Below are positions 28,952-29,884 of a DNA stretch of 64,000 bases, one piece after another. The stretch comes from Fodinicurvata sediminis DSM 21159 (lineage in GTDB: Bacteria > Pseudomonadota > Alphaproteobacteria > Kiloniellales > DSM-21159), in contig NZ_ATVH01000016.1 in assembly GCF_000420625.1 (NCBI RefSeq), forward strand, positions 186,001-250,000, read 5' to 3'. The notes under the pieces were generated by a model. It saw nothing but the letters and a program-made list of their open reading frames with translations. It had not been told where the DNA came from and ran no database searches. Position 1 is the first letter of the stretch, and the number at the start of each line of letters is the position of its first letter. A program made the translations under genes and the position numbers.

Positions 28952-29194
28952 TGAGACGGCCCCCAAAGAATAGCTTATAGTCCCCTGAATCACAGCGATT
29001 CTATGCGATGGAGTCGCGGCTGTCCAGAATTTCAGGTGAAAAGCTATCAAAAAGCATTCTTGCCTGTTCTACAGACGAAGTCAGAATCAGGGAAGCTTTC
29101 TGTACAACGACCGATGCTGGCAGCCATGCGGTCGATCGCCGCAGCTTCACGTCCAGAGACAGCTGCGTGAAATGGCAGTGCTAACTTCGAGGTT

Positions 29195-29209
29195 ATGCTG
29201 CACTGCACA
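29195..29209. promoter_or_regulatory. upstream TGC-rich operator, likely PhaR site
   Basis: The sequence TGCTGCACTGCACAA contains CTGC-N3-GCAC, one mismatch from CTGC-N3-GCAG, reported for the PHB regulator PhaR in Rhodobacter sphaeroides. It sits nine bases upstream of a -35 box for the phasin gene. Confidence 0.55.
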
Positions 29210-29217
29210 AAATTCCC

Positions 29218-29245
29218 TTGACTTACTGAGTGCCATCCTTATCTT
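29218..29245 (+). promoter_or_regulatory. predicted sigma-70 promoter of the phasin gene
   Basis: TTGACT (29218-29223) and TATCTT (29240-29245) are separated by 16 bases. Transcription would start near 29252, inside the second TGC-rich operator, leaving a leader of about 100 bases. Confidence 0.6.
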
Positions 29246-29252
29246 ACCGGTA

Positions 29253-29267
29253 TGTTGCATCGCAACA
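29253..29267. promoter_or_regulatory. downstream TGC palindrome operator, likely PhaR site
   Basis: TGTTGC-ATC-GCAACA is a perfect 6-base inverted repeat with a 3-base spacer. It overlaps the predicted transcription start of the phasin gene, where a bound repressor would block the polymerase. Confidence 0.6.
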
Positions 29268-29353
29268 AAGCCATGTGTTGATCAACTCTGACGAGCTGCA
29301 ATTCATGGAGTTCGACAGAGTAACGTCACACGAAACATCAGGAGTATAGAGAT

Positions 29354-29884
29354 ATGACCACAAAGAAAACCGCCTCGGCGCAGGAAGCGTTGAAGCCTGT
29401 TGAGGCCGCCGTCAATTCCGGTAAGGAAACTGTCGATGCGGTTCTCAAGGTCAGCGCCGACGCCGCAACGAAGCAGTACGAGCAGGCCTTCTCCATGACC
29501 AAGGAACAGGTCGAGAAGTCCTCCAACATGGCCTTCAAGAACTACGACGAATTCCAGGATCTCGGCAAGGAGAACCTGAATGCCGTCGTGAACTCAGGCA
29601 CGACCTTTGCGAAGGGGTTCGAGGCCATCAGCAAGGAAATGATGGCGTTCACCCAGTCCAATATGGAAGCGGGCCTGGCCATGACCAAGAAGATGCTTGG
29701 TGCCAAGAACCTTCAGGAATTCACCGATCTGCACGGCGAATACAGCCGTGGCCAGTTCGACAAGTTCCTGGCGGAGACCGCAAAGCTGAGCGAGATGTCG
29801 ATGCAGACGGCCAACGAAGCTGTTGCACCGCTTCAGACGCGGGCCCAGGCGACCATGGAAAAGGTCATGAAGCCGGCCGCATGA
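29354..29884 (+). CDS. phaP: phasin family protein
   Basis: A 176-residue helical, Lys/Glu/Ala-rich protein without signal peptide that should coat polyhydroxyalkanoate granules. The family region runs from about residue 40 to 150 (QYEQAFSMTKEQVEKSSNMAF, NLNAVVNSGTTFAKGFEAISKEM, QEFTDLHGEYSRGQFDKFLAE). An AGGAG ribosome site lies nine bases before the ATG. It is monocistronic: promoter and two TGC-rich operators upstream, terminator downstream. Induction when PHB granules sequester the repressor PhaR is the expected control. Confidence 0.9.
   Translation: MTTKKTASAQEALKPVEAAVNSGKETVDAVLKVSADAATKQYEQAFSMTKEQVEKSSNMAFKNYDEFQDLGKENLNAVVNSGTTFAKGFEAISKEMMAFTQSNMEAGLAMTKKMLGAKNLQEFTDLHGEYSRGQFDKFLAETAKLSEMSMQTANEAVAPLQTRAQATMEKVMKPAA

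Follow-up and report, generated by a model that had tools for sequence, protein, structure and literature searches.

The window, a 64-kb stretch of Fodinicurvata DNA, carries a phasin gene of the PhaP1 type preceded by a promoter and two palindromes that resemble PhaR operators (Table 1). A D-alanyl-D-alanine carboxypeptidase gene on the minus strand is the 5' neighbour of this region, and clpS followed by clpA lies 3' of the phasin gene. An earlier note on this DNA had proposed a TTGACT-N16-TATCTT promoter between two palindromes, and this arrangement was borne out by direct reading. Site 2 (TGTTGC-ATC-GCAACA) is the perfect palindrome described there, with 6+6 matching arm positions, and site 1, whose arms match at four of six positions (direct reading and script), is likewise a palindrome but had been placed one base too far upstream, at 29195-29209. 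Seven bases separate the 3' edge of site 1 from the -35 hexamer, and the centres of the two sites are 57 bp apart as measured by script. Transcription would start near 29252, which would place site 2 at the start point.

Table 1. Features of the phasin locus (window positions).
Feature	Positions	Strand	Centre	Basis and remarks
Site 1, predicted upstream PhaR operator, TGCTGCACTGCACAA	29196..29210	.	29203	sequence
-35 hexamer TTGACT	29218..29223	+		sequence
-10 hexamer TATCTT	29240..29245	+		sequence; 16-base spacer from -35
Site 2, predicted downstream PhaR operator, TGTTGCATCGCAACA	29253..29267	.	29260	
Probable ribosome binding site AGGAG	29340..29344	+		sequence; nine bases 5' of ATG
Phasin gene, PhaP1 type, 176 aa	29354..29884	+		Phasin_2 PF09361, Pfam E 3.8e-24

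The leader of the phasin mRNA may form a long hairpin (29275-29331, with an inverted repeat at 29285-29300 and 29306-29321) whose predicted folding is better than that of shuffled sequences (z -2.68). For the sister species (L053, 1423-1478; z -1.49) the prediction is a similar hairpin that differs in sequence, this comparison comprising two sequences. At the presumed 5' end of the mRNA, site 2 itself could likewise give a small hairpin.

We determined how often such palindromes are expected by chance. The bare core TGCRNYGCA occurs 15 times in the window against 9.3 expected, a count reached by 5 of 100 shuffles, and with no clear enrichment it was rejected as evidence. A 12-mer, TGCRNYGCANMA, was also discarded as too loose, giving 144 matches versus 18 for the reversed pattern. 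In case of the 15-mer TKNTGCRNYGCANMA, which we used to define strict sites, the window contains only two matches, exactly sites 1 and 2. Since this pattern is rare in first-order Markov sequences of 64 kb (mean of 0.09 in 100 sequences) and none of these contained a pair within 100 bp, a site pair with arms lies far beyond chance, whereas a lone TGC-N3-GCA core does not.

The genome provides the components that regulation by PhaR would require. A PhaR homologue, whose absence the earlier note had named as fatal to its reading, is encoded at one locus (C13:78562; PF07879, E 7.6e-30) and also carries the second domain, PF05233. Further, a PHA synthase (PhaC; PF07167 at C11:106435-106950, E 2.3e-83) and a PHB depolymerase gene of the PF06850 type are present. 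PhaR of Rhodobacter binds CTGC-N3-GCAG-like sites, as the earlier note had stated; TGCRNYGCA describes the two sites of the window better than CTGC-N3-GCAG. Both sites fit the PhaR motifs of three published accounts, with mismatches counted by eye. The motif of B. diazoefficiens, TGCRNYGCASMA (PMC6201568), matches site 1 at 29199-29210 with no mismatch and site 2 with one; that of R. eutropha, YTKNTGCRNYGCANMAR (PMC12849132), has one mismatch to each site; and the 21-base motif of S. meliloti, WNWD2NYGCRNYGCRNH2WNW (PMC12542648), has none to site 1 and two to site 2, both at the outermost bases.

Scanning the whole genome (3.69 Mb, 20 contigs) yielded 23 strict sites, where about 5 would be expected from the window Markov rate of 0.09 per 64 kb. 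The reversed pattern, a control that does not preserve dinucleotide content, was found 0 times. Ten of the 23 sites, including the two that prompted the search, fall outside mechanically called ORFs, compared with 7.3% of bases in the window or 9.1% in the same loci (P 2e-6 and 1.5e-5, respectively). Called ORFs contain the other 13, which are probably chance occurrences or unproven, and we rejected the idea that all 23 form one regulon.

The targets for which the earlier note had suggested a genome scan were recovered in part. Four strict sites, one pair each, lie 5' of two of the three Phasin_2 genes, whereas no strict site was found close to the third Phasin_2 gene, phaZ, phaC or phaR. One weak candidate site with two mismatches, one of them in the core, is found ca. 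80 bp before the phaC frame. bdhA was not one of the annotated genes that neighbour strict sites, the annotation around sites within ORFs being partial. PhaR autoregulation has been reported in some species and is not a defining feature. At phaR of this genome (L078) no autoregulatory site was recognized: of the two hits, both weak, the first falls within the phaR frame and the second ca. 1.6 kb upstream. S. meliloti phaR likewise has only sub-threshold sites (PMC12542648).

Strict sites also precede gltA (citrate synthase), ppa (inorganic pyrophosphatase) and RhlE-type helicase genes. In S. meliloti, gltA and ppa belong to a PhaR-repressed protein module and have predicted sites (PMC12542648), and rhlE of B. 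diazoefficiens is PhaR-repressed and has a site (PMC6201568). Because these genes are linked to PhaR in other species, they support PhaR as the reader of the sites. Further genes 3' of strict sites encode a methylmalonyl-CoA-mutase-type protein, a transketolase, an MFS transporter and a DUF1127 protein; the helicase site, the mutase site and one of two DUF1127 sites are located within other called or over-extended frames. Two PhaR-type palindromes (L069, 1572 and 1684; G000:C14:235171 and 235283) occupy the interval that separates a DUF1127 gene from an Xaa-Pro peptidase-like gene, and a distant member of the order (L183 in G039) has a palindrome pair with 51-bp spacing beside a DUF1127 gene. 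DUF1127-linked palindromes are thus possibly a conserved further target.

Both sites are well conserved in close relatives. The phasin is 97% identical in the other genome of the genus, and likewise in Fodinicurvata fenggangensis DSM 21160. All 18 close orthologues, 12 of them from genomes of the family, among these the window's own, and six from other relatives, keep both sites before the phasin gene, 56-59 bp apart; L080, both of whose sites equal those of L053, was excluded from this set. Except for site 1 of L086, which has one mismatch, the sites match TKNTGCRNYGCANMA exactly (35/36), and at L083 an additional, third site lies upstream of the pair. In the alignment of the 18 sequences both palindromes and an invariant TTGAC are conserved and the remainder is divergent, with an A/T-rich -10 region recurring among the orthologues. 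At the 12 family loci, between 76 and 130 bp separate site 2 from the closest start codon in frame, and the tight spacing between the sites therefore does not reflect a general lack of indels.

To place this spacing in a wider context, pairs were counted across the order. Pairs 45-70 bp apart were found in 57 of 61 genomes and in four none was found, while pairs 18-44 bp apart occurred in 13 genomes and pairs 71-96 bp apart in two, the latter at one kind of locus; the reversed-pattern control, which does not keep dinucleotide content, gave 0 in each range. These counts are lower bounds because the search pattern needs an A in one core and thereby misses the 24-bp pair of the window's own genome. 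The 45-70 bp class comprised 87 distinct pairs, or 88 on rescan, of which 83 precede a phasin-like frame (phasin HMM, E up to 0.01; the 12 family phasins used to build this HMM were themselves among the loci scored). The five pairs lacking an HMM match lie at L146, L154 (frame phasin-like by eye), L183, L201 and L216. The pair is thus conserved at phasin genes across the order and not, as the earlier note had allowed for, a pattern scattered at random over unrelated intergenic regions. Its reading as a PhaR double operator accordingly gains support from the PhaR homologue, the downstream phasin, the fit to published motifs and this order-wide conservation.

Spacing differs between phasin types. 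At PhaP1-type promoters (frame of at least 50 bits) it is 55-59 bp in 48 of 50 cases, with outliers at 47 and 70 bp, whereas at PhaP2-type promoters (lower HMM scores, n = 33) it ranges from 48 to 70 bp, with 23 of the 33 at 58 or 66-69 bp. The narrow PhaP1-type spacing suggests that two bound PhaR units may act together, perhaps through contact. Together with peaks near 47, 57 and 67 bp it also suggests a helical constraint, a signal that shared descent inflates outside the PhaP2-type test. Genus medians were non-uniform in helical phase at 10.5 bp (0/5000, n = 39), as they were with other families added (n = 47). However, phasing is not established because the single PhaP1 peak drives the signal of all types, and PhaP2-type promoters alone gave no significant phase (P 0.18, n = 17), with values such as 61, 62 and 64 bp between the peaks.

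Beyond the order, 42 of 299 genomes across the phylum have a 45-70 bp pair and 257 have none; spacing of the 57-bp type is therefore not general. Of the 42 genomes, 28 were inspected at one new locus each and 12 were set aside; the phasin HMM matched downstream at 20 of the 28 loci and not at eight. In family f12 of the window's class, possibly Rhodobacteraceae, nine of 12 genomes have a pair, always 46-48 bp apart and phasin-linked. In family f40 outside the class, possibly Burkholderiaceae, six of seven genomes have one, and the six loci inspected show spacings of 58-61 bp, five of them phasin-linked.

The second phasin gene of the genome (G000:C14:109321-109620) has two strict sites upstream, 24 bp apart (C14:109785-109823, L068). 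Its upstream site follows a likely TTGACA -35 hexamer (by eye), in contrast to site 1, which stands before its hexamer. The 24-bp spacing is seen at the second phasin in both genomes of the genus (L068 and, in G001, L215). Compared with the 48-70 bp of PhaP2-type pairs in the order, it would represent a change in operator layout. Short spacings were also observed at L214, L216 and L217 (G013, G007 and G020), where palindrome pairs 20-22 bp apart precede MaoC-type hydratase genes resembling PhaJ; five of the 14 distinct 18-44 bp pairs were fetched, and PF01575 was found in both MaoC-type genes tested. Judged from their sequences, these pairs suggest that PhaR also controls monomer supply, through operators spaced differently.

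We consider it very likely that PhaR represses the phasin promoter of this locus through two operators that are emptied upon formation of PHB granules, where binding, repression and release are transferred by analogy from relatives. The operator pair is in all likelihood functional. In the proposed scheme, PhaR would occupy both palindromes as long as PHB is lacking, and because the bound palindromes would abut the -35 hexamer and cover the transcription start, RNA polymerase would be excluded or unable to start. Once granules form, PhaR would shift to their surface and both operators would become empty, so that phasin could be made from the free promoter and coat the granules.

Functionless palindromes arising by chance are a negligible prospect, for although the window contains the 9-bp core by itself fairly often, the 18 orthologues keep both sites while their flanks diverge and the 100 random sequences yielded no pair. 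Slightly less remote, yet still highly improbable, is that another regulator with TGC-type specificity reads the palindromes instead of PhaR. Such a regulator would be compatible with a PhaR link that is one of sequence similarity at this locus, but it accords poorly with the way the sites match the PhaR motifs of three different species, with the phasin-like frames at 83 of 88 pairs and with sites before gltA, ppa and rhlE.

Within the preferred reading of a PhaR-repressed promoter, each PhaR dimer may block on its own as an independent steric obstacle, with the 57 bp merely reflecting the positions of -35 and start. We give this variant an even chance. The loose PhaP2-type spacing and its lack of significant helical phase agree with it, as does a gel-shift experiment with S. 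meliloti DNA in which either single site sufficed for binding (PMC12542648). The near-uniform PhaP1-type spacing is less easily accommodated, given how freely the distance from site 2 to the start codon varies, and reports on two other species point the same way: for phaP3 DNA of R. eutropha, less PhaR was needed for a shift if the fragment had more than one site (PMC12849132), and at phaP1 of B. diazoefficiens binding was better when neither site was disrupted (PMC10888616). A more tentative and, in our estimate, rather doubtful variant is a spacing-locked clamp, in which PhaR units ca. 57-58 bp apart would touch across the promoter and thereby exclude RNA polymerase, the spacing evolving in steps of about one turn (46-48, 56-59 and 66-69 bp). 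If this were true, phasin control would be a very short bridging or looping system, not two separate roadblocks.

This analysis adds a genome-checked, predicted PhaR operator pair for Fodinicurvata and its relatives; our literature search found no paper naming both Fodinicurvata and polyhydroxybutyrate. In the order, operator pairs with 45-70 bp between them are for the most part a sign of phasin genes, so that they can assist the search for such genes and for PhaR regulons. Their narrow spacing offers a simple, testable clue to the mode of repression by PhaR. The tight spacing at PhaP1-type promoters may be unreported: among the matches listed for PhaR or phasin operator spacing or looping, only work on general looping or promoter design appeared.

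The two-operator layout as such is already described for phaP1 of R. eutropha (Cupriavidus necator), and the mode of control is known. One of the PhaR footprints there (BS1 and BS2) immediately precedes -35 and the other surrounds the start, so that the likeness to our locus is one of position relative to the promoter; both loci have palindromes with a single central base before a phasin gene that is PhaR-repressed there and predicted to be so here, and the authors liken the phaP1 layout to the lac auxiliary operators (PMC12849132). A third site is predicted inside the R. eutropha ORF (PMC12849132), whereas the phasin ORF studied here (29354-29884) contains no exact TGCRNYGCA core. S. meliloti, where PhaR is also called AniA, has two palindromes of the same type before each of its phasin genes phaP1 and phaP2, as well as the predicted sites at gltA and ppa, but its paired sites bracket -35 alone, at distances of 18 and 28 bp (calculated from the coordinates in Table 3) as opposed to 57 bp here (PMC12542648). 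Similarly, phaP1 of B. diazoefficiens, with rhlE among the other repressed genes, has two footprinted sites of the TGCRNYGCASMA type which lie on either side of -35 (-101 and -72) and thus 29 bp apart, again compared with 57 bp at the Fodinicurvata promoter (PMC6201568, PMC10888616).
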